NCBI RefSeq assembly: GCF_035594125.1
Contig: NW_026973751.1
Span: 1-64,000, forward strand
DNA: 64,000 bases
DNA from: Scylla paramamosain
Lineage: Eukaryota; Arthropoda; Malacostraca; Decapoda; Portunidae
Direction: 5' to 3'
Made by a program: the position numbers and the translations under genes. The notes under the pieces were generated by a model that was given only the letters and a program-made list of their open reading frames with translations, made no database searches and was not told the origin of the DNA. Positions 2,658 to 62,640 of this stretch are shown here, piece by piece. The stretch's first letter is position 1, and every line of letters starts with the position of its first letter.

Positions 2658-3392
2658 TTATGTGGCTTCCCTGCGTGAAATGTTTACTTCCTGAGATATT
2701 GGACGTCTATGAAAATACGTGGAAAAGTGCAGGGTGGTATCATCAGCGTAGGAGTGGATAGGACAGAAAATTTGGTTTAAATCATTGATGAGTAATAAGA
2801 GAGTGGGTGACAGGACAGAACCCTGAGGAACACCACTGTTAATAGATTTAGGAGAACATTGACCGTCTACCACAGCAGCAATAGAACGGTCAGAAAGGAA
2901 ACTTGAGATGAAGTTACAGAGAGAAGGATAGAAGCCGTATGAGGGTAATTTGGAAATCAAAGCTTTGTTCCAGACTCTATCAAAACCTTTTGATATATCC
3001 AAGGCAACAACAAAAGTTTCACCAAAATCACTAAAAGAGGATGACCTAGACTCAATAAGGAAAACCAGATCACCAGTAGAGCGGTGATCTCTCTGATCGC
3101 CAGTATGGCGATCAGAGATAAGGTTGTGAAGTGATAGATGTTTACGAATCTTCCTGTTGAGGATATATTTAAAAACTTTAGATTGGCAGGAAATTAAAGC
3201 AATAGGACTGTAGTTTGAGGGATTAGAATGGTCTCCCATTTTTAGGAATGAGTTGAATTTAGGCAAACTTCCAGCAAGAAGAAAAGGTAGATGTTGACAA
3301 AAAAGTTGAAAGAGTTTGACTAGGCAAGGTGCTAGCACGGAGGCACAGTTTTGGAGAGCAATAGGAGGGAACCCTTCAGGTCCATAAGCCAC
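2658..3392 (-). pseudogene. LINE reverse transcriptase fragment
   Basis: A 244-codon open stretch. It contains the RT core in order: NPSNYSPIALIS (fingers), LDISKGFDRVWNKALISKL (palm with first catalytic Asp), NSGVPQGSVLSPTLLLL and SYADDTTLHFS, whose YADD carries the two metal-binding Asp residues. The family normally makes cDNA by target-primed reverse transcription. The upstream frame is interrupted from the endonuclease by stops and shifts, and the downstream part is cut at about 2540, so the protein cannot be complete. The catalytic motifs are intact, which suggests moderate age. Confidence 0.85.
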
Positions 3393-34906: not shown

Positions 34907-37720
34907 TCACCTAGTAATATAAATTGTGAGGGTGTTGATTGAAATACACTGTCCTCCCTGAACGAGTTGTATGAGGGAAGTTAGGTATGGTATGGCGAGG
35001 AAGATCGACTGGAAATGAGCAGAAGGGGAAGGTGTAGAAGCAGAGATATCAGGCAAAGGAGATGAATTAGAGTCTAAGGTAGACGTAGTCAGGTCATCTC
35101 TATCATTAGATGTTGCTTGTCTGGTGATTGGTATATAAGCTGGCTTCAGACGGTCAATAGATACAGATGTGTCACCCTGAGGAAGTCTGAGGATGAAGTA
35201 TTTCGGGTCACGTTGTATTACTTCATAAGGTCCCGAATAAGGAGCTTCTAAACTTTTGCGAACTTTGTCAATCCGCACCCAGACCTTTGAACATGAAAAC
35301 AGAACGTTAGGAACATATGGTTTAAATGAGGAGTGACATTCACCTGATGAAAAGTTATAAAAATCAATGGCCTGCATTTCTTTAATCAAGTGGTGTATAG
35401 TATCTTTGTTCATTGATATTGGCGAGTCTTTAGTGATAATTGCAGAAGGACACAACATATGAGTTCCTGTGACAGCAGTGAATGGCGAGTAACTGGTCAT
35501 ATTAGGTGTCAAACGATATCCAAGTAAGACTATGGGCAAAGCATAAAACCAGTTCTCTTGTCTAGCACGTATCACTGAATTTAAAGAGCGGTGATGGCGT
35601 TCAATGATACCGTTCGCTTGAGGATGATAAGCAGTTGTTCGCATGTGATGGAAGCCAATAATTGAGGAAAGCTCAGAAAACAACTCACTTTCAAGTTGAG
35701 CACCTCTGTCTGTCACTACCTGTAGCGGGACTCCAAAATGAGAAATCCAACCAGCCACGAATGCAATAGCGACGGAGCTCGCGGTGGTGTCTATTACAGG
35801 TATAGCTTCCGTCCATCTTGTCGCTCTGTCAATGCAAGTCAGAAGGTAACTGTATGGGAGAGGGTATGGGTAGTTAGGAAGAGTAGCAGGAGGCAATGGT
35901 CCAACAATATCTATATGAACAGTCTGGAAGCGATCAGTAGGAGTAGAAATAGGAGAAACTGGTGATATTGTGTGTCTGTGTGTTTTAGCTTGTTGACACT
36001 TAAGACAATTCGTTACAAACTCCCTTATATCTTTGTTCATACAAGGCCAGAAATAACGTTGTTTAATTAGTTTAGCAGTGGTCTTAATACCAGGATGAGA
36101 TAGATCGTGTAATGAATGAATGACATTTATCCTAAGAGAAGAAGGAACAAACGGTCTTGGTGCGTTGGTAGATGTGTCGCACCATAGAGTAAGATTAGAG
36201 GGCAAGGTATAATTGGATAATCTTTCCTTGTACAAACCGACCTTGGTGTCACCTTCCTGGGAACGAGCTATGCCACACAAGTCGAAAGAATCAACTGAAA
36301 TTGCACATGATGGTCTTGATAAACAATCGGCAACAACATTGTTGTCCCTATGGATGTACAGTACAGATGATACATATTCAGAGATTAAAGAAAGTTGCCG
36401 TTGTTGCCTATCAGACTTTGCAACTGACTTAGAATGAAAGGCAGAAACTAAAGGTTTATGGTCAAGGAACAAGGTGACCGAGTGGCCATCAATGAGTGTT
36501 TTAAAGTGAATGACAGCCAAATAAGAAGCTAAGAGTTCTCTGTCATAGGTGGAATTGGTTTTCTGAGTGTCAGAGAGCTTTTTGGAATAAAATCCTAGAG
36601 GCGTAGGCGTAGGCGGGTCATCTATAATCTGGTATAGAGCTGCGCCAACTGCGAAGCTCGAGCTGTCAGTCACAAGCTGGTAATCTGTTGCCTTCTGAGA
36701 GGGATAGGCGAGGGTAGGACAAGTAACTAGGGCTTGCTTCAAATTGTTGAAGGAGTCCCTTGCAACATCTGTCCATAAGAGAGATTTAGAAGATGGATTA
36801 TGCTGTAAGAGTTCTGTCAATGAATAAGCAACATCGGCAAAATTAGGGATCATTTGTCTAAAGAAATTTAGCATCCCCATAAAACGGCGCAATGCAGTTG
36901 AAGTTTGAGGTAAAGGAAACTCTGAAATTGCAGTGACGCGGTTTTGAGGTGGTCTAATTCCATGAGCACTGGCCTCATAGCCAAGGAAGGTGAGCGATGA
37001 CTTGAAAAATTCACATTTATCTATAGATAGTCTTAAGTTGTGTTTTGCTAAAGTAGAAAGAACAGTCTTAACATCAGCAATGTGTTCTTCAAGAGCTGTA
37101 CTAGCTACTAAGATGTCATCCAAGTAGGTGAAAGTGTTCTTAACATTAACCAATATGGTGTCAATGAAGCGCTGAAAAGTGGAACCTGCATTTTTAAGAC
37201 GAAAGGGCATATACAGAAATTCAAACAGACCAAACGGTGTGCATACTGCAGTCTTAGGTACATCGTCTTTGGCCACAGGGATCTGTAAGTATGCACGCTG
37301 TAAATCGATCTTTGAAAATATGGTCTTACCCTTAAGTGACATGGTGAGACAGCGCAAATGTGGTATGGGATATTTATCATTCACAGTTACGTTATTGAGT
37401 CCGCGATAGTCACCACAAGGTCTCCAAGCACCAGGCTCCTTCTTAGGCACGAGATGCAGAGAAGACGCCCAAGGTGCGTTAGAGCGCCGAATGATTCCGG
37501 CATTAAGCAAAAACTTATATTCATCTTTAGCCGCTTTGAGTTTCTCACCTGTCAAAGGTCTTGCTTTGAAATGTATAGGAGGCGAGTCACCTGTATCAAT
37601 ACGATGGTGTATAGTTTCCACAGGAGGTGTAGTGGCTGACAACTGCAAAGGTGAAGTGAGAACCGGAAACTGAGGAAGGAGTTCAGCAGCTTTTGAGTCT
37701 ACCCCATTATAATTAACCAA
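34907..37720 (-). CDS. pol: Gypsy pol: RT, RNase H, integrase
   Basis: A 937-codon open frame. The start shown is the first in-frame Met after a stop, not necessarily biological, because protease lies upstream in the same frame. RT motifs: WRPCGDYRGLNNVT, FSKIDLQRAYLQIPV, FTYLDDILVAS (YLDD catalytic pair, about residue 200). RNase H: LVTDSSSFAVGAAL and TYDRELLASYLAV. Integrase: zinc-binding HDLSHPGIKTTAKLI with CLKCQQAK, then the DDE residues in HIDIVGPLPP, VTDRGAQLES and NGIIERHHRSLN. The C-terminal segment has a chromo-like or SH3-like region (VWVRIDKVRKSLEAPYSGPY). It would copy the element RNA and integrate the DNA. No env follows. Confidence 0.92.
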   Translation of the reverse strand: MVNYNGVDSKAAELLPQFPVLTSPLQLSATTPPVETIHHRIDTGDSPPIHFKARPLTGEKLKAAKDEYKFLLNAGIIRRSNAPWASSLHLVPKKEPGAWRPCGDYRGLNNVTVNDKYPIPHLRCLTMSLKGKTIFSKIDLQRAYLQIPVAKDDVPKTAVCTPFGLFEFLYMPFRLKNAGSTFQRFIDTILVNVKNTFTYLDDILVASTALEEHIADVKTVLSTLAKHNLRLSIDKCEFFKSSLTFLGYEASAHGIRPPQNRVTAISEFPLPQTSTALRRFMGMLNFFRQMIPNFADVAYSLTELLQHNPSSKSLLWTDVARDSFNNLKQALVTCPTLAYPSQKATDYQLVTDSSSFAVGAALYQIIDDPPTPTPLGFYSKKLSDTQKTNSTYDRELLASYLAVIHFKTLIDGHSVTLFLDHKPLVSAFHSKSVAKSDRQQRQLSLISEYVSSVLYIHRDNNVVADCLSRPSCAISVDSFDLCGIARSQEGDTKVGLYKERLSNYTLPSNLTLWCDTSTNAPRPFVPSSLRINVIHSLHDLSHPGIKTTAKLIKQRYFWPCMNKDIREFVTNCLKCQQAKTHRHTISPVSPISTPTDRFQTVHIDIVGPLPPATLPNYPYPLPYSYLLTCIDRATRWTEAIPVIDTTASSVAIAFVAGWISHFGVPLQVVTDRGAQLESELFSELSSIIGFHHMRTTAYHPQANGIIERHHRSLNSVIRARQENWFYALPIVLLGYRLTPNMTSYSPFTAVTGTHMLCPSAIITKDSPISMNKDTIHHLIKEMQAIDFYNFSSGECHSSFKPYVPNVLFSCSKVWVRIDKVRKSLEAPYSGPYEVIQRDPKYFILRLPQGDTSVSIDRLKPAYIPITRQATSNDRDDLTTSTLDSNSSPLPDISASTPSPSAHFQSIFLAIPYLTSLIQLVQGGQCISINTLTIYITR

Positions 37721-37795: not shown

Positions 37796-38110
37796 TTAAC
37801 AGTCTACTATTAGTGAGTTAGCTGCAAGAAAATCGGTTCCCAAAATTGGATGTATAACGTCAGCAATGATGAAAGACCTAGGGAAGGAATGCCTAATACA
37901 TCGTATCCCAAGGTCTACATCGACTTCACCATAACAATGTATGGGTTTACCTGAAGCATTAGTAAGAGTAACAGCAGTTGGCCTGAGGAACGGAGTAAGT
38001 TCTGATTCATTAGGAAGCAGCGAAAGTGATGAACCAATATCTATCAAAAATTGGCAATTCTTGCAGCCGATTGTGGCACTTACTTTAAGTGGCAGTCCGA
38101 CGGTCGCAAC
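37796..38110 (-). pseudogene. Gypsy aspartic protease
   Basis: The minus-strand frame carries FLIDIGSSLSLLP, the retropepsin active-site region with D-I-G in place of the usual D-T-G, then FIIADVIHPILGTDFL, matching the second conserved block (I-L-G-x-D-F-L). It is in the same frame as the 937-codon pol frame but separated by a single TAA at 37796-37798 followed by AAC. In relatives, protease and RT are continuous, so the stop is probably a point mutation (for example from CAA). Confidence 0.75.
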
Positions 38111-38133
38111 TGATATTTCTACAGACTGCCCTA

Positions 38134-38969
38134 CTAGTTTCCCACCTGGTGGAATACGCGAGTGGGAGAAGAAGAACGAGAATTAGGATGAGAATCTGAC
38201 AAAATATTAGAAGCTGTAGAAGAAAGTATACACCATCGTTTACATGATTTTGCCCTGTTACCATAAGACAGATGGTACCTGCACACCTGAGGACGCTGCC
38301 CTTCATGAAAGGCGCGCACTCCAATGGGAACACAAGTTCTAGAAAATACATTATCCTGACAAGCTGAAGTGAAATTTGGGCCTCTATACCATTATCTCTG
38401 TTCCGGTTCGCAGGCCTGGACCCTTGTCTACCTTCCACCATGGAAACATTAGCGCTGTTGTTTACACTTGCATTACTTGAGCCATAGGCCAACAATGTCT
38501 CAGCTACACAAGCCATTTCCTCTAGTGTAGAGCTCTCCTCATATGTCACTAGGAGAGGTCTGATGCTACTAGGTAGTGCTTTAAAAAATTTCAACTTTAT
38601 AAAGGAATCATCCATCCTTAGTTCAGCAGCTATTTTACGCAACTCTCTCAAATACCTGGAAGGTCTGTCACACATTATGTTATTTTGATTAACAAGAGAG
38701 TCAAAAAGTTCAGGTTTTGACCTGGTGAAAAGAGATATCAAAGATTGCTTTAATTCACCATAGTCTGAAGAATTGATGACTTCATCACTCAATTGATTGA
38801 TTACTCTAAGTGGCAAATTTGATAATATATGGTGAAATTTAATACTTGAAACAGTGATCTTGGCAAGAACAAACTGTGATTCAATTACTGTAAAACACAC
38901 CAGATGTAAGTAGCGAACCCTCGTCCTGCTTCGGCATAGTTCCAAGGGCATAGATTCCAAACAAGACAA
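38134..38969 (-). pseudogene. gag: Gypsy gag, frameshifted
   Basis: The frame from 38969 carries FTVIESQFVLAKITVSSIKF and ELRKIAAELRMDDSFIKLKF, capsid-like text typical of arthropod Gypsy gag. Near 38320 the coding sense shifts to another frame with CRYHLSYGNRAKSCKRWC, the atypical C-x-x-H...C...C knuckle common in this group, ending at a stop near 38134. The N-terminus is not clearly defined. Gag would package the element RNA. One frame change breaks it here. Confidence 0.75.
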
Positions 38970-39779: not shown

Positions 39780-40610
39780 GTGTTTAGAGCAGATGAGAAT
39801 GAGAAGCTGACAGATATTTCCATAACTAGGGAGATAGTGGAACAGGAGATAGATAGGCTAAAAAAGTTCAAGTCACCAGGACCTGATGAAATATATCCCA
39901 GAGTACTTAAGGAATGTAAAGAGATTATTAGTGAGCCGTTAGTTTCTGTCTTTAGGAAATCACTGGAGTCGGGTGAGGTACCAGTAATGTGGAGGCAGGC
40001 TAATGTAGTACCCATCTTTAAGAAAGGAGATAAAACTTTAGCGTCTAATTATAGACCTGTCAGCTTAACTTCAGTCGTAGGTAAAATGTTAGAGTCAATA
40101 ATAGCGAGGAACATTAGGGAACATTTAGACAAACATAACTTGATAAATCAGTCACAGCATGGCTTCACGAAGGGGAAGTCTTGCCTGACAAACTTATTAA
40201 GTTTTTACAGTAAGGTGTACGAGGCAGTAGATAATGGTGATAGTTATGATATCTTATATCTGGACTTTAGTAAAGCATTTGACAAGGTACCCCATCAAAG
40301 GCTCCTGAGAAAGGTTAGGGCACACGGGATAGATGGGAAGGTGTTAGGCTGGATAGGATCATGGCTTGGTAACAGGCGACAGAGAGTGGTAATAAATAGC
40401 TCGAAATCCGAGTGGGGTCATGTAATTAGTGGGGTACCACAGGGATCAGTATTAGGGCCATTGTTATTTCTAATGTATATCAATGACTTGGATAGTGGAA
40501 TTAGTAGTGATGTTAGTAAATTTGCGGATGACACAAAGATAGGTAGATTAATTAGGTCAGAATCGGATGCCATCGCCTTGCAGGCAGACTTAGATAGAAT
40601 GAATGAATGA
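39780..40610 (+). pseudogene. CR1/L2-like reverse transcriptase
   Basis: 276 open codons covering almost the whole RT: FKSPGPDEIYPRVLKE, VPIFKKGDKTLASNYRPVSL, NQSQHGFTKGKSCLTNLL, ILYLDFSKAFDKVPHQRLL (first catalytic Asp), ISGVPQGSVLGPLLFLMYIN and SKFADDTKIGRLI (FADD). This wording is standard for CR1/L2-clade elements. Endonuclease and ORF1 are absent. All RT catalytic residues are intact, and the frame breaks only in a short tandem repeat at its end, so this fragment looks fairly young. Confidence 0.9.
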
Positions 40611-43427: not shown

Positions 43428-43560
43428 TATATATACGGTTTAAAACATGGAATTCCATTCCTGAGCAAACCAAAATTCATACATCATTGAAAACATTTAA
43501 AAAACACTATAAACAACATATAATTTCCTCATACTGACGTCTTTCTCTATTAGTACTTTC
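43428..43560 (+). mobile_element. LINE C-terminal remnant
   Basis: The plus-strand text FKTWNSIPEQTKIHTSLKTF followed by KKHYKQHI, ending in a stop near 43537, matches the usual post-RT C-terminus of many LINE ORF2 proteins (W-N-S-I/L-P, then a basic tail). Nothing upstream belongs to it. A low-complexity AT-rich tail follows. Confidence 0.6.
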
Positions 43561-43790
43561 ATTTTCGTTTTCTTTTCTTATTTTCTTCACCCAATATTTG
43601 ATTATGAAATATCTTCAGATAATAATCTCATGATTTCTACCGATAATGTAATTACATACATAAGTATACTGAAAATATTATTCATTTGTACTTTGTGTGC
43701 ATATACATCACAAATCCTTCTTTCTTTCTTTATTTATTTATTTATTTTTATTTTACTGCTCAAAAATTGGGCTGCCTAAAGAGTATAGAT
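43561..43790. other. AT-rich spacer
   Basis: Low-complexity AT-rich DNA with a TTTC and TTTA short-repeat stretch at 43720-43755. No feature is recognised. Confidence 0.5.
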
Positions 43791-43791
43791 C

Positions 43792-43865
43792 AGGGGTTCT
43801 TAACCTTTTGATGGTTCCATATGTAGTGCTGGAAATTAATTATGTATATTTCTATTTTTTTTTTT
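43792..43865 (+). mobile_element. Possible solitary hAT-like terminus
   Basis: CAGGGGTTCTTAACCTTTTG has the form of a hAT/Charlie-type terminal inverted repeat. I found no matching opposite end within the next kilobase, so it may be a remnant or chance. Confidence 0.35.
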
Positions 43866-43869
43866 TTCT

Positions 43870-44988
43870 AGGCTAAGGCCCATGTAATGTGCGGGGATGA
43901 CCAGACAGTCTCAGTATCATGTGACTAACCGCCCCCTTCCCCTCCTCTCCTCAGTTTCCTTTTGTCCTTACTTTTTCTCCCTCTCAGCGTCACTGTGTTG
44001 ACCACTTCTATGATAAATATACCCCGTGAATAAACGTAATTTCTCCTGCTTGGCCAGGTTATAGAGGCGAATTTTTCACCTAATTCCAGAGAATGGGGAG
44101 CCCTTAATACGATCAAATTAATTCTATAATGGTAAGGTCTTAAGCCAGCTCAAACAAATCCCAGATAATTACGCCACGCCAATGAGGTTGACGAATCTGA
44201 TAAGTCTTCTTTGCTTCGCCGTCCTCTTACCCCTGTTGCTACGCAAGCCGGGAAGAGATACCAGACCTTGACTAATTCCCCAATTGATTTCAAAAGTCCA
44301 TTGAATTAAACTTCTTAAAGTAACAACTATAAAGTAAACAGTAACTTAATTATTCATATTTTTCATCCCTGAACTCACAACCTAGTCGCCCCCCCCACTA
44401 ACACAAAATTATAACTCTTAATAAATTTCCCCACTGGAAACCTTTATCCTTAGTTTCCCGCCTATTTCCTCACAAGCAAAGCCAGTCTCTCTCGGATTCT
44501 CCTCAGTCTCTCTCGGATTCTCCTCAGATATTCCTGTTGATAAACTATTGTTCTGAGTGGATAGATATTCACATTTTTTCGTTCCTTTTGTTGGTTCTCT
44601 CCACGTGACTAGTGCAACCACCTGGTTCGAGATCACCGTGTGAGACTGTCCTCAGGTCTATACATACCTTTTAGGTATATTTTTTATTTATTTATTTATT
44701 CTCTGGTCTCCCCCGCAATTCAGTAGTCGCGAAGATATCTCCATCGCAGTTTTATGTAACTGAAGAGTACGCTACCATTCTTTTGTATTTCTGGATTCCT
44801 TTTTTTTATTATTATTATTCGGATTATTCCATTATCAATTAAAAATCTATAAAAGTGTCAATATTTGTATTTCTTTTAATCCAGTGATAGGATTTGTGAT
44901 TATCGTCTGCCACAAGGGAACATCACTCGTGGGCACTAACTGAAGGTGACTTTTATTTTATATATTTTTTTTTTTTCGTGGGCACTAA
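43870..44988 (+). repeat. Probable 5' LTR region of the outer LTR element
   Basis: This 1.1-kb non-coding stretch lies directly upstream of the outer element's primer site, where its 5' LTR should be. It has LTR-like content: a polyadenylation word AATAAA at 44029-44034, two tandem 21-bp copies starting CAGTCTCTCTCGG at 44483-44524, and a repeated CGTGGGCACTAA word (near 44928 and 44977) at the presumed 3' edge. I could not define the left boundary, and no matching 3' LTR is seen near 62.6-62.9 kb, so the call rests on position. Confidence 0.4.
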
Positions 44989-44990
44989 AC

Positions 44991-45010
44991 TGGTGAGCAG
45001 CGGTGGCATT
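44991..45010 (+). promoter_or_regulatory. Primer-binding-like site of the outer element (tRNA-Leu type, diverged)
   Basis: TGGTGAGCAGCGGTGGCATT resembles the inner element's primer site at 47885-47904 (TGGTGGCAGCGGTGGGATTC), with a one-base insertion and a substitution. It lies 46 bases before the first ORF of the outer element. Confidence 0.6.
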
Positions 45011-45056
45011 TATTTCGCGACTGACCGAAAGAGGTGGAGACTGGAAATAATTGTAA

Positions 45057-45581
45057 ATGTTGAAGGTGGCACTTGTAGGGCATAGCCAGATTCCCCGGCA
45101 TCTAAAGGTAACAAATGTGCAAATTAGGATATTCAGAGTCCCTGGAGCAAAGGCTAGAACTTTCTTTGAGGATGATCGGTTAAATCGAGTACTCGAGTGG
45201 GAACATGACTTGACCATCTTGTGGATAGGCAGCAATGACATAGAAACATCTACCAATCCCGCTAGGATTTTCTCCGATGTTAAGAACATCATCAAAGAAA
45301 TCACTGCCAAATGCCAATCACTAGTGCATGTCTGCCAAATTGAACCCAGGACCAACCCTAAGGGAATGTCAGTGGAGAAATATAAGAAATTCCAAGTAGG
45401 AATCAATAATAGAGTAAAGAGAGCCCTGAAGACCCCAAACATTCATTTTAATAATATTCAATTTGTACAAGAACTGAGCGAGGATGGTGTTCACTGGGAC
45501 GAGAGAGGCCAAGCTCAAGTAATCAGTAAGATCAAAAGAGTTATTGAAGGTCACAGTAGCGATAGAGAGGCAGTGGAGTAG
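45057..45581 (+). CDS. SGNH-hydrolase-like ORF upstream of gag (outer element)
   Basis: 174 intact codons from the ATG at 45057, the first ATG after the primer site. It carries the hallmark blocks of SGNH/GDSL hydrolases in order: block I GHSQ with the putative nucleophile Ser10 (GHS instead of GDS), block II Gly30 in FRVPGAKART, block III GSND with Asn60, and block V DGVHW with Asp143 and His146. Such enzymes remove acyl or acetyl groups from esters. No signal peptide or membrane segment is seen, so it would act in the cytoplasm. It precedes gag by 118 bases in a different frame. The related inner element has the same ORF in the same place, so it belongs to the element and not to a host gene. 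The substrate is unknown. Confidence 0.8.
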   Translation: MLKVALVGHSQIPRHLKVTNVQIRIFRVPGAKARTFFEDDRLNRVLEWEHDLTILWIGSNDIETSTNPARIFSDVKNIIKEITAKCQSLVHVCQIEPRTNPKGMSVEKYKKFQVGINNRVKRALKTPNIHFNNIQFVQELSEDGVHWDERGQAQVISKIKRVIEGHSSDREAVE

Positions 45582-45699
45582 AACACATTGTCCTGGAAGA
45601 AGAAAACCTGAGCGCATACTGTGTATCGCAGGTCACCTAACAATCACCCTGAGAGATTGTGTTCTACACCCAGTACGTTAAACTTCCATGTGAGCAAAG

Positions 45700-46520
45700 A
45701 TGACTGATAATGTTCGCCTCCCAAGGGGTGGATTAGACCCGTGGCAGGACTTAATGGATCACAACACCAGAGAGAGCCTGGGAGCAGTTAAACATGAAAG
45801 TAAAGGGAAAGACTTGAACACTTTAGAACAGGAAGTAGAGGAACTAAAGCAAATCTTAAATCAACAAAATCAGGTAATTGGGCGCTTGGCTAACATCCCT
45901 AATTTACACAGAGCACCTAGCACTCCCACCAAACCCCGAGATATCCCAATTCTTGAACTCCACCACCTACAAGGTCTTGACTCAACTACCCAACTGCAAA
46001 TTTTCATTGAACTGGTGGAGCAAAGTAGCAATGAGGACACCCGCAAAGTGCAAATTGCAAAGAGTAGGGTCAGCAGCGAGCTCGCGGCTCTCATACATAA
46101 CCATCAAACCTTACATCATTGTCACACCTGGAATAGTATTAAACAATTGCTTCTATCACAATTCTCCCAAGAGGTTAACTTTGACAGGGCGTGGAGAGAC
46201 ATAGACGCACAGACATATGACTGGGTAGAATCTCCCCAAGCATTTGCCAACAAATTCACTTGCAAATATGCCACCCTAGAGACGAGCTTTCCAGGAGAGA
46301 AACTCCCTAAATGTGAGAAAATTATCAAAAGAAAGTTGTGGCAGGGCTTAACCCAAGAAGCAAAGGCTAGACTAGAAGGTTTCCTGGATGAGGATTATCC
46401 TCTTGATAAATTTATTGACAGGGTAGAACATGAGCGCCAACTGCTCGAGGCTGCCCATACTTCCCCCATTGCTAGAATTAAACCTGAACTGGGAAAATCT
46501 AGATCAAAACCCATTGGTAG
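45700..46520 (+). pseudogene. gag: Outer gag, part 1 (N-terminal, interrupted)
   Basis: Opens at the ATG 45700 (MTDNVRLPRGGLDPW). A coiled-coil-like stretch (LNTLEQEVEELKQILNQQNQ) is followed by a capsid-like region with RAWRDIDAQTYDWVESPQAF, KLPKCEKIIKRKLWQGLTQE and DKFIDRVEHERQLL, each matched at the same place by the inner gag. At codon 274 the frame is interrupted by the inner element's LTR (46521). The apparent end at 46557 is read inside that LTR. The remaining 97 codons lie at 55471-55761. Confidence 0.85.
46517..46520. repeat. Target site duplication GTAG (left)
   Basis: The four bases before the inner element's TGTAACG end, repeated at 55466-55469 right after its CGTTACA end. Counting one copy restores the outer gag frame. 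Confidence 0.9.
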
Positions 46521-47883
46521 TGTAACGCTCCTTTTTATTATTTCTGTGTTTCTTTGAGTCTCCCCAATAATTGTTTTCTTTTGTAGCTTGCGGTGAAGAG
46601 GAGGATAATAGCGGTAATTAAAGGTTTAGTAATTATATGAAAAAGTATATTTATAAGGCGTGTATTCGTGGGAGTGATTTAAAAGTCTTGAAATATTTGT
46701 TATAAATAGTCTTTACTTATTTCAACTGTGGTTTTCTCTAATCAGTGGTAATACGAATAATAGGATTACATCATGTTGCGTCAGCCTACCAGTAACTCAT
46801 AAGGTGTCATTCCCTAGCTTATAAAATATGTTAGTAATTTAGAATTCAATTATTAACTTCAACTAATGTCCAGCCTATATGCTCACCTTGCTAGCCAATT
46901 ATTCCTGCATTTTTATTTAAACTAACGGTTCAGTAAAATTATTTGTGAAAGAAGAGAGAGAGAGAACTAGTTAAGGTTCCAATAACTTCAGAGGCCTGGG
47001 GGTGTTGAGGGAGAGAGCACAGAATGGCGTCTCCCTTCCCTCTGGCAACAGGTGGGTCTCGTAGCTCTGAAATATTTGATTTTTCTTTTATTTAGAAGTG
47101 AATATTACTGTGTTCATGTTTATTATTCATGTCTCTAGTGAAGATATAGTGACTGTACGTGTTGACAGAATGGCGTCTCCCTTCCCTCTGGCAACAGAAT
47201 GGCGTCTCCCTTCCCTCTGGCAACAGATAAAATAGCCAGTGTTGGTCCCACGTGGAGACAGGCCACAGAGTCTTGGGAAAGTGTTAGCCATGTAATGTTT
47301 CTTTAGTCAAGTATAATCTACTGTGAATGTGTTGTGAGCAATATTATTGCCTTAGAGAAGTGATGGATGAAGGCTGTGACGCTATTTAGGGATATAACGG
47401 TGCCCAGAATCAATGGTACTCTTGAGGAGTTATAAAAGTAATTATTTTCTTGTGTATTCGTAGTGTTAAGTAACGGAGTATAAGTGTATATGCCATACCA
47501 GAATTTCAAGTGCCTTATTTTTTTTTTTTTCTAGATTAACCACTCGATAGTGTCATAGTGGGTCAGTCAACCCAAAGAATCCCATCAGTATTATTCATTT
47601 AATTATTTTTTTGCTATTTTTATATTTTTCGTTCCTCCTAATAAAGCCACACTGTAGGTACTGTGTGATAATTAACCTCTCCCTACCCTCTGGCCATGAC
47701 GATGAAGGCGAGAACCATTACCAATCAAAAATGTTTTCTTTTTTTCTATTGTGTGTGCGTGCTTCACCTCTTCTCTCTTCCTCTTCTTTTTTCTTCTTTA
47801 CCGTGAAGATCTTTGCCTCGTCTCATTAGAGCTCTGATCGGACCGGTGAGGAGAAGGGAGGAGGGGGGGGGGGTGGCGTTACA
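46521..47883 (+). repeat. Inner element 5' LTR
   Basis: 1,363 bp from TGTAACGCTCC to GGCGTTACA, nearly identical to 54107-55465. It contains the polyadenylation word AATAAA at 47640-47645. A 29-bp motif starting CAGAATGGCGTCTCCC is present once at 47020-47048 and twice in tandem at 47166-47223. A poly-G run lies close to the 3' edge. Short open frames in it are not genes. Confidence 0.95.
47020..47223 (+). repeat. 29-bp motif repeated three times in the LTR
   Basis: CAGAATGGCGTCTCCC(T...)GGCAA occurs at 47020-47048 and, directly in tandem, at 47166-47194 and 47195-47223. The 3' LTR has the same layout near 54606 and 54752-54809. A role in transcription control is possible but not shown. Confidence 0.85.
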
Positions 47884-47884
47884 C

Positions 47885-47904
47885 TGGTGGCAGCGGTGGG
47901 ATTC
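47885..47904 (+). promoter_or_regulatory. tRNA-Leu primer-binding site of the inner element
   Basis: TGGTGGCAGCGGTGGGATTC lies one base after the LTR. It is the complement of the 3' end of an animal tRNA-Leu (acceptor and T-arm ending CCACCGCTGCCA plus CCA), recalled from known tRNA-Leu sequences. It would prime minus-strand DNA synthesis. Confidence 0.8.
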
Positions 47905-47972
47905 GCTGTAGTCTTGGCCAGTCGTATTGGGAGAGACAGAGTACTGGCAGTTGGGTAATATTGGGTCAAGTA

Positions 47973-48509
47973 ATGTTCAAAGTGGCTGTTGTAGGTCATA
48001 GCCAGGTACCACGTAGGTTTGATGTGGAAGTGGAGAATTCAGAAGTAAGGATATATCGTGCAGGAGGAGCAAGAGCTAGGAATTTCTTTAATGACGAGTG
48101 ATTGAATCACGTCTTGGCATGGAGACATGACCTCACTTTCCTCTGGTTAGGAAGCAACGACATCAATCCTAATACACAGCCTTGTGAATTAACAGATACA
48201 ATTCTGAACATTGGCAAAGAAATTGAACGAAATTGCGGTTCGAAGGTTATTTTGGTAGAAATAGAAAATAGACAGTATCCATCTAGCAGACCAGTAATTC
48301 CGAATGAACGCTATAAAAAGATAAAACGTGCAGTGAATGCCGCTTTGCTTAAAAGTAAACAGTTCTTGTGTATCAATTTTAACAGTTTTGTGTTTACCCT
48401 TGGAAGAGATGGAGTACATTTCGAAACCAGTGCCAAGGCTCAAATTCAACAAAAGTTGGCTATGAATATTAGCAAAGCCAAAGCTCGTCTATTTGGCCCT
48501 GTACACTAA
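47973..48509 (+). pseudogene. SGNH-hydrolase-like ORF upstream of gag (inner element), one stop
   Basis: A 179-codon frame from the ATG 47973 to the TAA at 48507, matching the outer ORF along its whole length. Block I is GHSQ (Ser10), block II GGARARNFF, block III GSND (Asn62) and block V DGVHF (Asp146, His149). One TGA at codon 43 (48099-48101) interrupts it where the outer element has CGG (Arg); a CGA to TGA change would explain it. The gag ATG follows the stop by only 8 bases in another frame. Translation could be by reinitiation or from separate RNAs. Either the stop is a late mutation, it is read through, or the protein is supplied in trans. Confidence 0.8.
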
Positions 48510-54106: not shown

Positions 54107-55465
54107 TGTAACGCTCCTTTTTATTATTTCTGTGTTTCTTTGAGTCTCCCCAATAATTGTTTTCTTTTGTAGCTTGCGGTGAAGAGGAGGATAATAGCGG
54201 TAATTAAAGGTTTAGTAATTATATGAAAAAGTATATTTATAAGGCGTGTATTCGTGGGAGTGATTTAAAAGTCTTGAAACATTTGTTATAAATAGTCTTT
54301 ACTTATTTCAACTGTGGTTTTCTCTAATCAGTGGTAATACGAATAATAGGATTACATCATGTTGCGTCAGCCTACCAGTAACTCATAAGGTGTCATTCCC
54401 TAGCTTATAAAATATGTTAGTAATTTAGAATTCAATTATTAACTTCAACTAATGTCCAGCCTATATGCTCACCTTGCTAGCCAATTATTCCTGCATTTTT
54501 ATTTAAACTCACGGTTCAGTAAAATTATTTGTGAAAGAAGAGAGAGAGAGAACTAGTTAAGGTTCCAATAACTTCAGAGGCCTGGGGGTGTTGAGGGAGA
54601 GAGCACAGAATGGCATCTCCCTTCCCTCTGGCAACAGGTGGGTCTCGTAGCTCTGAAATATTTGATTTTTCTTTTATTTAGAAGTGAATATTACTGTGTT
54701 CATGTTTATTATTCATGTCTCTAGTGAAGATATAGTGACTGTACGTGTTGACAGAATGGCGTCTCCCTTCCCTCTGGCAACAGAATGGCGTCTCCCTTCC
54801 CTCTGGCAACAGATAAAATAGCCGGTGTTGGTCCCACGTGGAGACAGGCCACAGAGTCTTGGGAAAGTGTTAGCCATGTAATGTTTCTTTAGTCAAGTAT
54901 AATCTACTGTGAATGTGTTGTGAGCAATATTATTGCCGTAGAGAAGTGATGGATGAAGGCTGTGACGCTATTTAGGGATATAACGGTGCCCAGAATCAAT
55001 GGTACTCTTGAGGAGTTATAAAAGTAATTATTTTCTTGTGTATTCATAGTGTTAAGTAACGGAGTATAAGTGTATATGCCATACCAGAATTTCAAGTGCC
55101 TTATTTTTTTTTTTTCTAGATTAACCACTCGATAGTGTCATAGTGGGTCAGTCAACCCAAAGAATCCCATCAGTATTATTCATTTAATTATTTTTTTGCT
55201 ATTTTTATATTTTTCGTTCCTCCTAATAAAGCCACACTGTAGGTACTGTGTGATAATTAACCTCTCCCTACCCTCTGGCCATGACGATGAAGGCGAGAAC
55301 CATTACCAATCAAAAATGTTTTCTTTTTTTCTATTGTGTGTGCGTGCTTCACCTCTTCTCTCTTCCTCTTCTTTTTTCTTCTTCACCGTGAAGATCTTTG
55401 CCTCGTCTCATTAGAGCTCTGATCGGACCGGTGAGGAGAAGGGAGGAGGGGGGGTTGGCGTTACA
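54107..55465 (+). repeat. Inner element 3' LTR
   Basis: 1,359 bp from TGTAACG to CGTTACA, nearly identical to 46521-47883. Differences seen by eye include GGCATCTCCC for GGCGTCTCCC, AGCCGGTG for AGCCAGTG, TTGCCGTAG for TTGCCTTAG and a shorter G run near the end. AATAAA lies at 55225-55230. Confidence 0.95.
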
Positions 55466-55469
55466 GTAG
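55466..55469. repeat. Target site duplication GTAG (right)
   Basis: Partner of 46517-46520. The outer gag resumes immediately after it. Confidence 0.9.
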
Positions 55470-55470
55470 C

Positions 55471-55764
55471 CCTGACCCAATAACTCAAAATCCCCCAGAC
55501 CTAACAAATGCAACATCCAAGGAATCAAGGGAAATTTGGGAACTTAAGCAACAGATTAAAAGTCTCACTGATCAAGTAGGAAGGTTGAGAACCTCCCCCT
55601 CTCCAACACAACCCGCTAAATATTGCTCACACTGTCAAACCCATAGTCACACGCTGAGAAAGTGCTGGAGAAAACCTGCCCGTGGATCATGCTTTGACTG
55701 TAGACAGCATGGGTGCTGGAGAGGAAATAAAGACTGCCCCGGAAAACCAAATCAGAATATATGA
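55471..55764 (+). pseudogene. gag: Outer gag, part 2 (C-terminal) with terminal UGA
   Basis: 97 codons continuing the frame broken at 46520. The content is a coiled-coil-like segment (WELKQQIKSLTDQVGRL) and the same two cysteine knuckles as the inner gag: C-x2-C-x4-H-x4-C (CSHCQTHSHTLRKC) and C-x2-C-x4-C-x6-C (CFDCRQHGCWRGNKDC). It ends in TGA at 55762-55764 followed by CTC, in frame with the protease that follows. The gag is about 371 codons in total, close to the inner element's 406. Confidence 0.87.
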
Positions 55765-57286
55765 CTCACCCAGGGATTCACATCCCCCGCTATCAATCTC
55801 ATAGTTAACAAGAAAATTCTTAAAGCTGTCATTGACACTGGTAGCGGCTATACTTTAATCACAAAGGCTGCGGTAGAGAAATTAGAAGGAGCTATATCAC
55901 AAAGGCGAGCAGTATCTATACTGCAAGGGGTAACTGGTTCACCCTTACGAATCTTGGGGATGACCTTACTAGAGATAGGAGTAGGTGAAGAGACTATACA
56001 CAAACAATGGTGCCCTGTAGTCCCGAATAGCTACCTTGATGCTGACGTCTTACTCGGGACAGACATACTTTCACAAGCTCCTTTTCAATGGAATGGTAAG
56101 ACAAATACAGTAAAGTGGGGTAAAACCACATACCTTGTTAATCATATCAAAAGGCAGAAAGGCAAGGTGGAATGAGTTCGCGAGGTACCTATTCTTCCTA
56201 CCACTCCAAGTCAAACAGATCACATCCGTCTAACTCATACCATCAAACTTGATCCCTACCGAGCTCAGTTTCTTCCTATCTCGGTGAAAGAAGACCCAGG
56301 AGAAACTTTGTTAGTCCAGCCTCAGCCATGTTTAACGCCTAATCATCACCCCTTGATTGTAACAGTAGATGAGAATAAAAAGGTCCCCCTCCCATTTATT
56401 AATGATACTAAGGGCCAGAAAACAGTCAAACCAGGAACCCTATTAGGCACTTTTGAAAACATCTCCTCCCCGACGGTCAAAGTCATCCACCAAAAGCAAG
56501 CCACTCCTTCCCTAGAAATCCACAATGATCTGTTGCCACACAACGACCAAACAAGGTGTCAAGAGTCAAAGAGTAGGCCACAAAGACTCGAGGAGTTGAT
56601 AAGACAACAGAAATGGAATAACCTTACTAGAGAGCAGAAAACAATCTTAAAAAATATCATTCTCAATCACCATGATTTATTCATAGTAGACAAAAACGAA
56701 CTTGGATTAATGAAAGGGCCTCCTGCTAAAATTAATATCTCTAGTCCAGAGCCTAGTCGTGGTCCTAGGTACCGATACCCCGAGGAAGCTAAAACCCTGA
56801 TATCAGACATGTTAACAGATATGGAGAACAGAGATATCATTGAAAAATCTACATCTGCATGGCTCTCTCCTATAGTATTAGTCAATAAACCGGATGGAAG
56901 TAAAAGAATGTGCCTTGACTACCGACATGTCAACAAACACTTAACTACTGACATTTACCCGCTTCCCCGCCTAGAAGAATTAGTTGAACAAGCAGCTGGC
57001 CATCAGTTCTATGCCACGCTAGATATGAGGGAGGCTTATTTTCAAATTCTATTGGAGGAAGGTAGCAGAGACCTCACAGCCTTCAGTGATGGGGTGACTC
57101 TCTATAGGTTTAAAAGGCTACCTTTTGGATTAAGCTGTTCTCCAGCTATCTTTACTAGACATATGGCCTCATTGTTAGCTCCTCTCGTGAAGAAGGGTTG
57201 GATGAAAAATTACTTAGACGACCTAATCATTTGGGCTTCAGACTTCACCACACTCAGCGAAAGACTCAGTGAAACTTTCGCTTTAC
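55765..57286 (+). pseudogene. pol: Outer pol, part 1: protease and RT, interrupted
   Basis: A frame directly after the gag UGA. Protease: AVIDTGSGYTLI and DADVLLGTDIL. A TGA at 56173-56175 interrupts the spacer, and the same frame then continues into RT: SPIVLVNKPDGSKRMCLDYR, YATLDMREAYFQILLE, FGLSCSPAIFTRHM and MKNYLDDLIIWAS (YLDD). At 57287 the frame meets the TTAA and terminus of a piggyBac element. The few apparent codons beyond are piggyBac sequence. RT resumes at 60986. Close likeness to the inner pol supports one lineage. Confidence 0.88.
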
Positions 57287-57290
57287 TTAA
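57287..57290. repeat. piggyBac target site TTAA (left)
   Basis: TTAA immediately before the terminus CCCGTAAAGTG, matched by TTAA at 60981-60984 on the other side. Confidence 0.93.
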
Positions 57291-57785
57291 CCCGTAAAGT
57301 GTTTAGTACGTATATATACGTTCGGGAGGGAAAGTGTTTAGTACGTATATATACGATCATCGTTTTCTTTTACTTCACGGCACCTAAACCTGTAGAAATG
57401 GTTCAAGATGTCTTTTCTATGCCTAAATATGATTTTGAAAGCTCACTCTCATTTTTATTGTATTGCTGTGGTCTATTACATAGAAGGTATCCATGACCAC
57501 GAATGATTTATTGAAAAAATAGGTATATTTATAAAAATATGTTAGTGGTGTCATAATTACTTATCAATATACTCAAAATACTGTTCAGTAGATCAGCTAT
57601 TTTTATATTATTCCAACTTGAATAGCAATTTCAATATATTTTGTGTTCATGCGTACAGTCACCGTCGGTTGTGTTGGCAGCCCTGGGGCGTGAGGCGCCG
57701 GGTTGGCGGGCTGGCCCGGCAATGAGTCATGATAGCCAGACACGCTGCTACACCCTCGCTGTTAGCACGTGTTGTCCTGTGCACC

Positions 57786-59608
57786 ATGCCGCGGGGCTTG
57801 ACATCGGCGCAAATAGAGAATATTCTCTATGACGATAATGTCACAGAGTTGGGGGACAGTGATCTCTCTGAGGAGGACGATAAAGATGACTCTGATTACA
57901 TACAATCAGACAGGGGGAGTGATGATGAAAATGAAAGTGAATCTGCTCCTGCTCATTCCAGCAAGAAGCGGAAAAGGGATGGTGGGGAGTCCGGGCTTGT
58001 AGTAGGTGCTTCCTCACTATCAGCTTCTCAGCCACTGCATGACCTCGCTAGTCAAGCGCACACACCATCTACATCCCAAGCTCAACACCAAACAATAAAT
58101 GCTGATGCTGATGTACAATGGGAATGGAGAGATGGGCATGACTTTTTGCCCACTGATTTTCAGTTTGATCTTCATGGTCGTGGTATACCACATGGACTCG
58201 TTCATGATGGCAGCACAGAGAGTGAATATTTTAGGTTGTTTTTCACGGAAGACATAATGGCTCATATAGTCAAAGAAAGCAACAAGTTTCATGGCTTTAT
58301 GATAGCAGGTAAAATACTCCATCCACACTCTCGTTTCTTGCAATGGCAGGACACAGATGTAAAAGAAATGTACTCATTTTTGGCTTTAGTTATGCTGATG
58401 GGGCTCACTCCAAGGGAAAATTATAAGGAATACTGGTCGACAGATCCACTTCTTCGCCAGCCTATTTTCAGTAAAATCATGTCAGTAAACAGGTTCATTG
58501 CTTTGCTACAGGCCTTACACTTCCAAGATAACACTCAGCCAACTGATGATGACAAAATGAGAAAAATAGTTTCAAGTCATCATTCAAACCATTTCAAAAT
58601 TTAGTTATTGATGAAAGTTTGGTTCTCTGGCGTGGTAATATACACTTTCGCCAGTACATCCCATCCAAGCGCCACCGATTTGGCCTAAAACTATTTGTTC
58701 TTTGTGACTGTGAAACTGCCTTCATTTTGGACATGATTTTGTACACTGGGGCAAGAACAAACATCAAAGAGAATAAGAAGTTGGGCATATCAGGAAGCGT
58801 TGTCAGTACCATGCTTGAGTCTTACCTTGGTCAAGGACATATACTTTTTGTTGACAACTGGTACACCAGTCCTACACTGCTCCACTATCTGCATGAGAGA
58901 ATGACTGGGGCCTGTGGTACGGTAAAGCCAAATCGCAAGTTTATGGCCAAATTCCCCATCGGACTGCAGAAAGGCGATGTTGTTCACAAGCAGGCAAACA
59001 ACATTCTTGCAGTGAAATGGAAGGACAAGAGAGACGTTCATCTCCTCACCAGTGTCCACGAACCAAAGTTGCAAACGAGTGAGAACATTGACCATTCCAC
59101 AAAAACCTTCATTGACAAACCTGAATGTGTTATTGTCTACAACCAAAACATGCGCCTTGTAGATAAAAGTGACAGCATGATGTCATCTGTGGAATGTTCA
59201 AGGAAAACAATGAAATGGTACAAAAAGATGTTTTTTCATCTGATTGACTGTGCTGTCCTCAACGCCCATATTCTATACCAGGTCAAAACTGGCGAGAAGC
59301 CGACACTCCATGACTTCACAAGGGAGGTAATAAGACAGCTTCTTGAGCAGTATTCGGAGCCTCTTCCTACAGCAGGACGACGACGAGCATCTCATGGTGA
59401 CGATCCTACACGTCTCACAGGTCGTCATTTTCCCAAGTATATCCGACCTACAGCTGCCAAGAAAAACGCCCAAAAGCCTTGCCACGTCTGCCGCACCACC
59501 ACACTCCGGCCAAAGCAACGCTAAGATACGAGGTTCATGTGTGTGCCCTGCGACACGGCTCTTTGTCTGGACCCGTGTTTTGAGGTATATCACACTCTCA
59601 AGATATAC
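57786..59608 (+). pseudogene. piggyBac transposase (PGBD4-like), two breaks
   Basis: The likely start is the ATG 57786 (MPRGLTSAQIENILYDD) in a good Kozak context; an in-frame upstream ATG at 57729 is less likely. An acidic N-terminus is followed by the DDE domain with catalytic Asp at 58610 (VIDESLVLWRG), 58853 (FVDNWYTSP) and 59162 (RLVDKSD, with a further Asp at 59171). The frame changes near 58575-58600, apparently with a small deletion before VIDES. A TAA at 59522-59524 precedes the in-frame cysteine-rich C-terminus (CHVCR upstream, then CVPCDTALCLDPCFEVYH). The enzyme would cut and paste at TTAA. These two lesions inactivate it. Confidence 0.9.
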
Positions 59609-60980
59609 TAGAGTGGTATAGATAATTGTAAATAATGTATATACTATAGAGCATAGGAAAATATGTTTCATTTGCTGCTAATGAAAGACAGAAGTTTATA
59701 ATACGGAAACCTGAAAGTTTACAGGTACAGGATTTTTTTTCCCCATGGCCGTTTATAATACGGAAACCTTAAAGTTTACAGGCACAAGTTTTTTTTTCCC
59801 TATGGCCGTTTATAATATGGAAACCTGAAAGTTTACAGGCACAATATTTTTTCCCTATGGTCGTTTATAATACGGAAACCTAAAGTTTACAGGCACAAGA
59901 TTTTTTTTCCCTATGGCCATGAGATGCGTATTTGCGTGTCAACAGTTAGTTGTAGGTACATTAGCCAATACACTTTTCCCTATGTAAGCATCAATTGCCA
60001 CATTATTTCTGCTGTCTTTTATGCACATGTGCTTTCATATCATTCATTCCTCATCTTACTTACTTTGGCCCACAGTAGATAGATAGAAGTATAGAACTGT
60101 AGTTGTAGTTAGTGAAGTGTTAGCTATACAGGCAGCCTCGTTGGGCCCAACAGGGTTGTTGCTGTCTGTTTCTCCTTTGTATTCATTCCTGGCTCGGAAC
60201 CTGAGTCATCAGTTTCCCAGCCATACAGATTTTCATGGGATATGCTACAGTCCAGAGGTAATACACAATTACCTCTTAGATATACTTGTAAAATTGGGAT
60301 GTTATGTAAATTGTACAGTAGCAGAGCAATACCACAAATTGGTCGGCAGCAAATGCAAAGACGCGGAAGCTACGTAGTAAATGGGAAAATGTTTTGGGTA
60401 TGTGATCAGCTGGCGGGCGAGGGCGGGCGGGCTGTGGTATGCAGGAGTACCAACATAAAAAAACATAAAATTCGTATAATGGGTTATTTGAGCAGCTGTG
60501 TGTAATTTTTTTGTTGTTGGTGTTACAAAACATGTTATGCTTGTGCAATGAAGGGATAATATTGTGCTACTTATATACACATAGAGAAAATATAGTCTGT
60601 ACGAGCGTGATAAATTTGGTACTATGATATGACTATAGAAAGGCTAGACAAACAATCCTCAGATATATTTTACAAGAAACTCAAACTAAACAATATATAG
60701 TCATGGAAGAAGCATTCACAGTGTGTCAGAAATAATAAATAAGAAGCGGAAGTTACATAGTACTGTTCTACATGTTTCGTCTTACGCACCACCACTGGAG
60801 TATTGGTGCCACGCGTGAAAGGACTCACAGAAAACGACAGCTTACAGGGAACACACATATATCGCATTTATATCGTTCAAATCAGCTATTTTTTTGCAAT
60901 TTTATAAGACAATAATATTATTTGGCCAAAATCCAACCCCACATGACCTGTTTCACTCCTATAAAGCAACACTGTACGGG
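59609..60980 (+). other. Non-coding right part of piggyBac
   Basis: No ORF of note. It contains the four tandem repeats at 59694-59918 and then AT-rich sequence to the right inverted repeat. Confidence 0.7.
59694..59918 (+). repeat. Four ~57-bp tandem repeats in piggyBac
   Basis: Four consecutive units start GTTTATAATACGGAAACC, contain AAAGTTTACAGGCACA and a T run, and end CCCTATGGCC. They differ by single bases and T-run length. Confidence 0.93.
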
Positions 60981-60984
60981 TTAA
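60981..60984. repeat. piggyBac target site TTAA (right)
   Basis: Partner of 57287-57290, directly after the terminus GTACGGG. Confidence 0.93.
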
Positions 60985-60985
60985 A

Positions 60986-62640
60986 GAAAATGGAGTCAAG
61001 CTTAACTTATCTAAATGCGAAATGGCAAAGACTGAAGTTACGTTTCTTGGTCATAAAATTTCACAAGAAGGTATTCAACCCGACCCAAAGAATGTAGAGG
61101 CAGTATTGGAAATGAAACCGCCCACTAAGGTCAAGGAAGTGAGATGATTTTTAGGTATGGCAGGATTTTATAGGAAACACATCAGTAATTTCGCTCAAAT
61201 AGCCACTCCACTTACCAACCTAACGAAAAAAGATCAACCTTTCCTTTGGACAGACAAGTGTCAGGAGGCATTCGATACCTTAAAAAGATCTCTTGCCCAG
61301 GCCCCTATACTAGCGAGAGCGCAAAGTAACCAGCCGTTCATTTTAATAACTGATGCCAGTAATACCCACGTAGGAGGCGTCTTAAGTCAAACTCAGGAGG
61401 ATGGGTCCGTCAGACCTTTGGGCTATTTTTCAAAAAAATTAAACTCCACTGAGAATAGGTACTCAGCTACAGATAAAGAAGCCTTGGCAGTACTTCTCTC
61501 TTGTAGACACTTCCATCATTATTTGTGGGGAACTAGCTTCACTATATTCACAGATCATCAGCCCCTTACTAGTATATTTAAGAGAAAGACCAAATCTGCC
61601 AGGATGAACCGCTGGATACTAGAGATGAGAGAATACCAATACAACATCCAATATGTGAAGGGAAAGTATAACTACGTGGCCGATCAGCTCTCTCGCCCAG
61701 TGAGGATCATTCAGCGATGTCCTACTCCAAACTATTTAGGCCTAACTTTAGAACAAATCAAGATTCAACAAAGGGAAGAAATTAAGTGGAGAGACATGAT
61801 AGAGTATCTGGAAGGAGGGTCTATACCTACCAAAAAGTATCATAAGAGTATATTGCACCAGTTCACCATAATTGATGAGTTGCTGTACTACGCTAAGGAA
61901 AACATTGATGGCAGCATTCATTATTCATTGGTAGTTCCTCAGGTTCTGATTCCTAAAGCTTTAGAACATGCACATGAGCTTTCTGGCCACCTGGGTCAGA
62001 AAAAGACAATTAAAAAGGCCGAAGAATTGTTTTACTGGTGTAATCTCAAGTTTGACGTAACCCAGTACGTAAAGAATTGCCTTACCTGTCAAAGATTTAA
62101 AACCTCTCCAGGGTTACAGCAGCCTTATCAGGAATTACCTTCAGTAGAGAAGCCCTTAGATAGGATAGGTATAGACCTGACGGATATGATTGCAGGCAGT
62201 GGTGGCTACCGATATGTGTTGACTATCGTAGATCACTTTAGCCGATTTGTGAAGTTCTATCCACTCAAAAACAAACTATCAGAGGGAATTGTAGAGGCGC
62301 TGCAGCAGTACATTACCGACTTCGGGACTCCTCATTCCATCGTCCTGGACAACGGGGGCGAGTTCACCTCCCAGATCTTCCAACAATTCTGCCAGCAACA
62401 CCTCATCACCCTCTGTTACACCACTCCCTAACACCCGCAAGGGAACGCCATCACTGAACGACTCCATCGCATGCTCAAATCCATCTTGGCTTCCATGTGC
62501 TGAGGTTACCCGCTACGGTGGCCTCGCCTACTCCCTGTGTGTCAGGCCACTATGAATGCCGCCGTCCATACCAGTATCGCCCAACAACCTTTCTTCGCGT
62601 TTTTCTCCCGGCATGCGCCCCGAGTGGTGGGTGCCAGGGG
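60986..62640 (+). pseudogene. pol: Outer pol, part 2: RT end, RNase H, integrase, decayed
   Basis: Resumes RT in the same frame (KLNLSKCEMAKTEVTFLGHK). A TGA at 61145-61147 precedes a long open stretch to 62428. RNase H: FILITDASNTHVGGVLSQ and DKEALAVLLSCRHFHHYLWG. Integrase: zinc region HELSGHLGQKKTIKKAEELF with CLTCQRFK, and the first two catalytic Asp in GIDLTDM and VLDNGGEFTS. A TAA at 62429-62431 and a TGA at 62501-62503 lie in the catalytic core; the third acidic residue follows the first of these (ITERLHRML). Recognisable text fades near 62640. Several stops fit CGA to TGA changes. Confidence 0.88.

Follow-up and report, generated by a model that had tools for sequence, protein, structure and literature searches.

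What does a small hydrolase-like open reading frame (ORF) contribute to a retrotransposon when it stands between the primer-binding site and gag? The question is raised by a 64-kb stretch of the Scylla paramamosain genome (1.21 Gb; assembly GCF_035594125.1, contig NW_026973751.1, labelled C135 here, positions 1 to 64,000), which is hereafter called the window. In the window, a younger Ty3/Gypsy element (inner) is inserted within gag of an older Ty3/Gypsy element (outer), and each element carries such an ORF. We propose that the ORF is probably an accessory gene ("ORF0") of a decapod Ty3/Gypsy lineage, in which a predicted single-domain SGNH hydrolase is encoded ahead of gag in three families. 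The product is likely a functional accessory enzyme.

Identity and predicted fold of the SGNH ORF

The original prediction, made from the nucleotide sequence of the window, placed an intact ORF at 45057-45581 and an ORF with one stop at 47973-48509, both between primer site and gag and both with all SGNH blocks. The coordinates proved exact, the inner ORF comprising 178 codons plus its stop codon, and VGHSQ, the block-II glycine, GSND and DGVH are seen in both copies, the proteins of which share 44% identity across 164 aligned positions. The outer ORF matched PF13472 (E 1.5e-8, 35.8 bits; cut-off 32.9) and PF00657 (E 3.1e-8, 34.5 bits; cut-off 23.6), and the part of the inner ORF past its stop fell under both cut-offs (E 0.012 for PF13472 and 0.029 for PF00657). 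No match for the protein was found in NCBIfam. The AlphaFold model of the ORF had a predicted local distance difference test (pLDDT) score of 93.8, and the listed structure matches in the PDB, judged from their titles, were mostly GDSL/SGNH esterases and lipases, which agrees with the predicted SGNH fold. The profile score above cut-off (outer ORF), the fold and the catalytic residues place the protein in the SGNH/GDSL superfamily. A PDB sequence search with the single protein as query gave chance-level matches only (best E 0.35), and a PDB profile search gave weak SGNH matches (2hsj, E 0.00093).

The Ser, Gly, Asn, Asp and His residues were all retained in 102 of the 110 proteins of at least 160 aa (P0001 included), a count obtained with a homology search that favors proteins sharing short words that include the catalytic motifs. 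Within this bias, the expectation that catalytic residues are conserved in other copies was borne out.

Layout of the nested elements

The features of the two elements are as follows.

43822-44987, plus strand: outer 5' long terminal repeat (LTR), start from alignment to other copies, end approximate and taken from the primer site
44991-45006, plus strand: outer primer-binding-site-like stretch, TGGTGAGCAGCGGTGG, close in sequence to the inner primer site
45057-45581, plus strand: outer SGNH/GDSL ORF, intact, 174 aa, with Ser10, Gly30, Asn60, Asp143 and His146
45700-46520, plus strand: 5' part of outer gag, broken by the inner element, 33% identical to inner gag
46517-46520, plus strand: left copy of the GTAG target-site duplication, inside outer gag
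46521-47883, plus strand: inner 5' LTR, TG...CA, 99.1% identical to 54107-55465
47885-47905, plus strand: inner primer-binding site, TGGTGGCAGCGGTGGGATTCG, from sequence
47973-48509, plus strand: inner SGNH/GDSL ORF, one in-frame stop among its 178 codons
48518-49738, plus strand: inner gag, 406 aa
49886-53350, plus strand: inner pol, 1154 aa, with reverse transcriptase, RNase H and integrase (Pfam) in Ty3/Gypsy order
54107-55465, plus strand: inner 3' LTR, 99.1% identical to the inner 5' LTR
55466-55469, plus strand: right copy of the GTAG target-site duplication
55534-55746, plus strand: continuation of outer gag (nucleocapsid part), 49% identical to inner gag residues 292-362
55921-57288, plus strand: first part of outer pol, 47% identical to inner pol residues 4-454
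57729-59524: PF13843-type transposase in two frames, inserted in outer pol
60980-62635, plus strand: second part of outer pol, with three in-frame stops, 57% identical to inner pol residues 454-1005

The pol order, LTRs, target-site duplication and primer site identify the inner element as Ty3/Gypsy, and its integrase domains are PF17921 and PF00665 (Pfam). The outer gag has full-length relatives, such as P0026, which shows a capsid-like fold and a C-terminal zinc knuckle, the hallmarks of Gag. Alignment similarity begins at 43805-43822 in the 17 outer-type loci lying outside the duplicated composite described below, and a primer-like match is found 60-65 nt ahead of the SGNH ORF in all 21 outer-type loci; the 3' LTR of the outer element was not found within the window. 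We assume that tRNA-Leu primes both elements, and we take the PF13843-type transposase to be piggyBac-like. From the SGNH stop to the gag ATG the gap is 118 nt in the outer element (ATG at 45700) and 8 nt in the inner element (ATG at 48518). The in-frame stop of the inner copy is TGA. A duplicate on C52 (L042) likewise has one TGA, and the duplicates L029 and L030 have no stop.

The nested pair (window 43557-48500) recurs at C52, C47 and C98. Movement of this composite by retrotransposition is unlikely, given that the similarity extends 265 bp beyond the start of the outer LTR, as far as the fetched loci reach. Since the similarity runs past the outer LTR, these copies are segmental duplicates or haplotigs.

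Copies and gene order in the genome

The genome was searched with P0001, and 150 of 317 candidates were scored; the counts of matches in this paragraph refer to those 150. About 100 near-full-length matches belonged to the two window families, and an older third family was also found. The outer type accounted for 65 matches (at least 95% identity, 172-174 residues), 62 of them stop-free, and the inner type for 35, 31 of them stop-free. Because 28 of the 65 outer-type matches share one score, a recent burst of outer-type copies is suggested. The third family, most of it decayed, is about 44-57% identical to P0001 and nearest to P0005. When P0015 was used as a second query (150 of 418 candidates scored), it led largely to the same places.

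Gene order was examined in 68 loci, i.e., 60 that were fetched and 8 from the search. Gag or pol followed the SGNH ORF on the same strand in 64 of them: 20 of 21 outer-type, 36 of 36 inner-type and 7 of 8 third-family loci, and 1 of 3 others. In the outer-type exception, L022, the sequence past the ORF reads N. Upstream, 19 of the 68 loci were viewed, and mostly an LTR end was followed by a primer site of the TGGTGGCA...GCGGTGGGAT type or a variant of it, with the SGNH start some 60-90 nt past it. At L020, a primer-like stretch accompanies a diverged ORF that lacks the block-V His and has no Pfam match.

Five inner-type loci (L036, L041, L047, L050 and L052), on different contigs or at different places, share an internal deletion from gag residue 33 to about pol residue 862 and keep the 5' LTR, the start of the 3' LTR, the end of integrase and an open SGNH frame. 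To judge from the shared deletion, they are an amplified non-autonomous derivative. Their open SGNH frames were set aside as a sign of selection, as there were too few changes.

Relatives in other samples and possible co-inheritance with gag

Among 51 database entries related to gag, four carry organism names, all of crabs (Eriocheir sinensis twice, Chionoecetes opilio and Portunus trituberculatus). When the 51 entries were compared with 122 SGNH entries, six SGNH/gag pairs shared both their source and an identical size of the longest contig, against a mean of 0.42 and a maximum of 3 in 2000 trials with jittered sizes; a seventh size match came from differing sources and was excluded. In P0155, a hypothetical protein of C. 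opilio (GWK47_015517, 286 aa), SGNH runs directly into gag, with a GDSL match to residue 165 and gag similarity from residue 175 (best E 1.5e-13), but this gene model was made automatically and may have merged two ORFs. For eight paired elements, the SGNH and gag trees had three of five splits in common, a number that 240 of 40320 label permutations also attained, and the gag tree was not rejected by the SGNH alignment (approximately unbiased [AU] test, p 0.117). It should be noted that six of these eight pairs rest on matching longest-contig sizes and that the outer-type pair combines P0001 with P0026, a database gag that is 99% identical. The six size matches and P0155 point the same way as the loci of the crab genome, with SGNH apparently before gag in relatives from other samples. 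Scans of viral contigs with P0001, alignment A1 and the inner pol gave pattern matches and no confirmed relative.

Selection on the SGNH ORF

On fixed trees, codon models gave a dN/dS ratio (omega) of 0.15 between families for six sequences of three families, two of which were broken copies with stop codons masked, and omega 1 was rejected (twice the log-likelihood difference, 2dlnL, 125). The values were 0.10 for outer against inner (2dlnL 46) and 0.15 for outer against third (2dlnL 80); all are rough, as synonymous sites are saturated between families (proportions of synonymous and nonsynonymous differences 0.76-0.89 and 0.30-0.45, respectively). Despite the rough values, the rejection of omega 1 between families is strong, and purifying selection on the SGNH ORF held while the families diverged. 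For gag, outer against inner (four sequences) also gave 0.15. Within families, omega was 0.8 for 16 unique outer-type, 1.0 for 29 unique inner-type and 0.8 for 7 third-family sequences, none distinguishable from 1. Values near 1 are expected here because copies drift after insertion, and within-family dN/dS is thus uninformative as proof of selection. The ratios for shared and singleton changes were mixed, on small counts: 0.91 and 0.31 in the outer family, 0.28 and 1.27 in the inner and 0.87 and 1.17 in the third. The original prediction of selection during the history of the lineage therefore stood, on the divergence between families (omega 0.10-0.15); selection is not evident among the present copies (0.8-1.0, not distinguishable from neutral). 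Values near 1 across family members, which that prediction named as a refuting result, were thus seen within families and not between them.

Several observations weigh against a conserved accessory enzyme. In addition to the saturation, the masked broken copies, the motif bias of the homology search and the near-neutral variation within families, the ratio for shared changes in the outer family was 0.91 (small counts). The ORF carries stops in seven of the eight third-family loci, and neither gag nor pol was detected at two of the three remaining loci (L020 and L021). One outer-type locus (of 21) and five inner-type loci (of 36) have no DGxH. In 8 of the 110 proteins of at least 160 aa, at least one catalytic residue is missing, in two cases because of gaps. 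Finally, the SGNH tree was rejected by the gag alignment (AU p 0.036).

Proposed expression of SGNH and Gag

Most likely, the genomic RNA would yield the SGNH hydrolase before Gag. Four loci were tested for ATGs between the SGNH start and the gag start: there are 8-10 of them, and no depletion of ATGs inside the ORF was found relative to synonymous shuffles (P(null<=observed) 0.71-0.86). Plain leaky scanning is not supported by these 8-10 undepleted intervening ATGs. The 8-nt gap of the inner family would fit reinitiation; the gap of about 120 nt in the other families, including two third-family loci, would fit it less well.

Comparison with known retroelements

That esterase domains occur in ORF1 of CR1/L2 long interspersed nuclear elements (LINEs) was correctly stated in the original prediction, and its remark that a standard Gypsy lineage with one upstream of gag was not known stood insofar as literature searches found none in animals, but the bdelloid, Ngaro, Penelope and plant precedents went unnamed in it. 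In bdelloid rotifers, Vesta LTR retrotransposons carry a GDSL ORF3 after pol, for which near-neutral intragenomic variation was reported and membrane passage proposed (Rodriguez et al., 2017; PMC5408684). Like the crab ORF, ORF3 is a separate GDSL/SGNH ORF in an LTR element, with intact catalytic residues and near-neutral intragenomic variation; the two are set apart by position, after pol in bdelloids and before gag in the crab. A dUTPase is found in three of four major bdelloid lineages, and none was found in the inner pol here (Pfam). GDSL domains are also known from Penelope-like Athena/Terminon elements (PMC6431247; PMC5408684), and the SGNH esterase from ORF1 of CR1/L2/RTEX LINEs and from Penelope-like elements (PMC3905857). 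The ZfL2-1 esterase hydrolyses p-nitrophenyl acetate and binds anionic phospholipid (PMC3905857). Its crystal structure, 4c1b, was a Foldseek match to our model (E 2.0e-6, TM 0.42, rank 27) and was absent from the 13 PDB profile matches at E<=1. Both ZfL2-1 and the crab elements have an SGNH fold in a 5' ORF. However, ZfL2-1 is a non-LTR element whose esterase is one of several domains of the ORF1 protein, which also has a coiled coil, whereas the crab protein stands alone beside a true gag.

Ngaro tyrosine-recombinase elements have a separate Hydro-SGNH ORF after the recombinase and split direct repeats (PMC9210276), in contrast to the DDE integrase and LTRs found here. In plants, Ty3/Gypsy ORFs upstream of gag include ORF0 of Retrosat2/RIRE (PMC3485330) and that of an Ogre-type family (PMC2533021). 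Retrosat2 ORF0, which was not detected beyond grasses, even has a model-based label as an ester-bond hydrolase and evolves faster than its ORF1 (PMC3485330). The plant and crab ORFs share the position before gag; no SGNH domain is named for the plant ORFs in the available portions of these papers. Full-text literature searches, with subscription papers and Repbase outside their scope, did not find an animal Gypsy element with an SGNH ORF before gag. SGNH domains in retroelements are thus already known; their place ahead of gag in animal Gypsy elements is new as far as these literature searches show.

Proposed function and alternative explanations

The protein starts straight at the first strand of the predicted fold and therefore appears to have no space for a signal peptide, which would imply intracellular action. 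It is probable that the SGNH protein is made from genomic RNA and is catalytically active on an intracellular acyl ester. Lysophospholipase/thioesterase, platelet-activating factor (PAF) acetylhydrolase and O-acetylesterase structures score equally against the model, and thus the substrate is not readable from the fold. By analogy with the ORF1 esterase of the LINE ZfL2-1, we tentatively favor a membrane phospholipid or lysophospholipid as the most likely single substrate; its cleavage would aid particle assembly on, or exit from, membranes, a role that has been proposed for the ZfL2-1 esterase as well. Possibly, the same protein acts instead on acyl or acetyl groups of a protein (Gag or a host factor) or of glycans. 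No evidence in this analysis tells these substrates apart, although the ZfL2-1 esterase was reported not to deacetylate histone peptides (PMC3905857).

It is unlikely that the protein is a non-catalytic scaffold with a fold kept for binding, like the OSK domain of Oskar. A sub-cut-off OSK match of the ORF (E 0.0028), the loss of Ser in the candidate host-fusion frame at L021 (see below) and a block I of GHSQ rather than GDSL would agree with such a scaffold, but the retention of all five catalytic residues in most of the proteins and the predominance of hydrolases among the structure matches argue for an enzyme.

Less likely still is a matrix-like enzymatic Gag module, with SGNH N-terminal to Gag in some lineages and separate elsewhere. 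P0155 reads SGNH straight into gag, and the inner-type locus L018 has one 623-aa SGNH-gag frame. The latter, however, stems from a short deletion that spans the SGNH stop in that locus alone, the former may be joined ORFs, and SGNH and gag do not form one open frame in 35 of the 36 loci of the inner type or in 20 of the 21 loci of the outer type, the 21st (L022) running into masked sequence. An apparent 1841-aa fusion at that locus (on C46) was discarded, as the adjoining sequence reads N.

It is very unlikely that the ORF was captured as a passenger of no use to the element and persisted through chance or because of cis-acting RNA signals. The within-family omega near 1 would suit such a passenger, as would the amplified derivative that dropped most of gag and pol and kept the 5' region with SGNH (five loci, one junction; cis signals alone could explain this). 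But the open frame and active site were kept although synonymous divergence is saturated and the proteins of different families are about 44-57% identical, and the between-family omega is, roughly, well below 1.

A candidate host gene and other features of the window

L021 (G000:C39:7537711-7541672, frame 1-2058) is a low-copy open frame of 1029 aa, 686 aa of which were seen. Its C-terminal ~185 residues are SGNH-like, match GDSL below the cut-off (E 5.4e-4), are 35-36% identical to the retrotransposon proteins and lack the catalytic Ser. Two other long frames (L069 and L070) resemble its N-terminal part, a paralogue with 57% identity some 150 kb distant and a relative with 27% identity on C6. 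Neither had a credible SGNH match within the fetched stretches of 2.2-2.3 kb. L021 thus looks like a candidate host gene that captured an SGNH domain.

A third, distant Gypsy-type pol lies at 34907-37720 on the minus strand of the window; it matches PF00078, PF17919, PF17921 and PF00665, is 27.5% identical to the inner pol and is adjoined by a DUF7041 ORF at 38085-38969; no SGNH match was found near this pol in the window. Other reverse transcriptase fragments (PF00078) are at 2658-3392 (minus) and 39780-40610 (plus), and about 900-34500 is dense in diverged direct and inverted repeats (roughly 70-90% among the matches listed).

Implications

A broader picture is rather unlikely as a whole: this decapod Gypsy lineage would replicate with the help of a lipid- or acyl-hydrolase encoded by its first gene, an enzymatic stand-in for matrix or env that remodels membranes for budding and possibly for cell-to-cell transfer and that in some cases forms a fusion with Gag. 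The host, in this picture, would have taken the domain at least once (the Ser-less L021). Dozens of open copies of the SGNH gene are present in one genome, and the small protein, encoded separately next to an ordinary gag and predicted with confidence, would make a role in the particles of the element testable without the complications of the multi-domain LINE ORF1. The repeated capture of such domains at different places in retroelements speaks for the usefulness of a lipid or acyl hydrolase to them.

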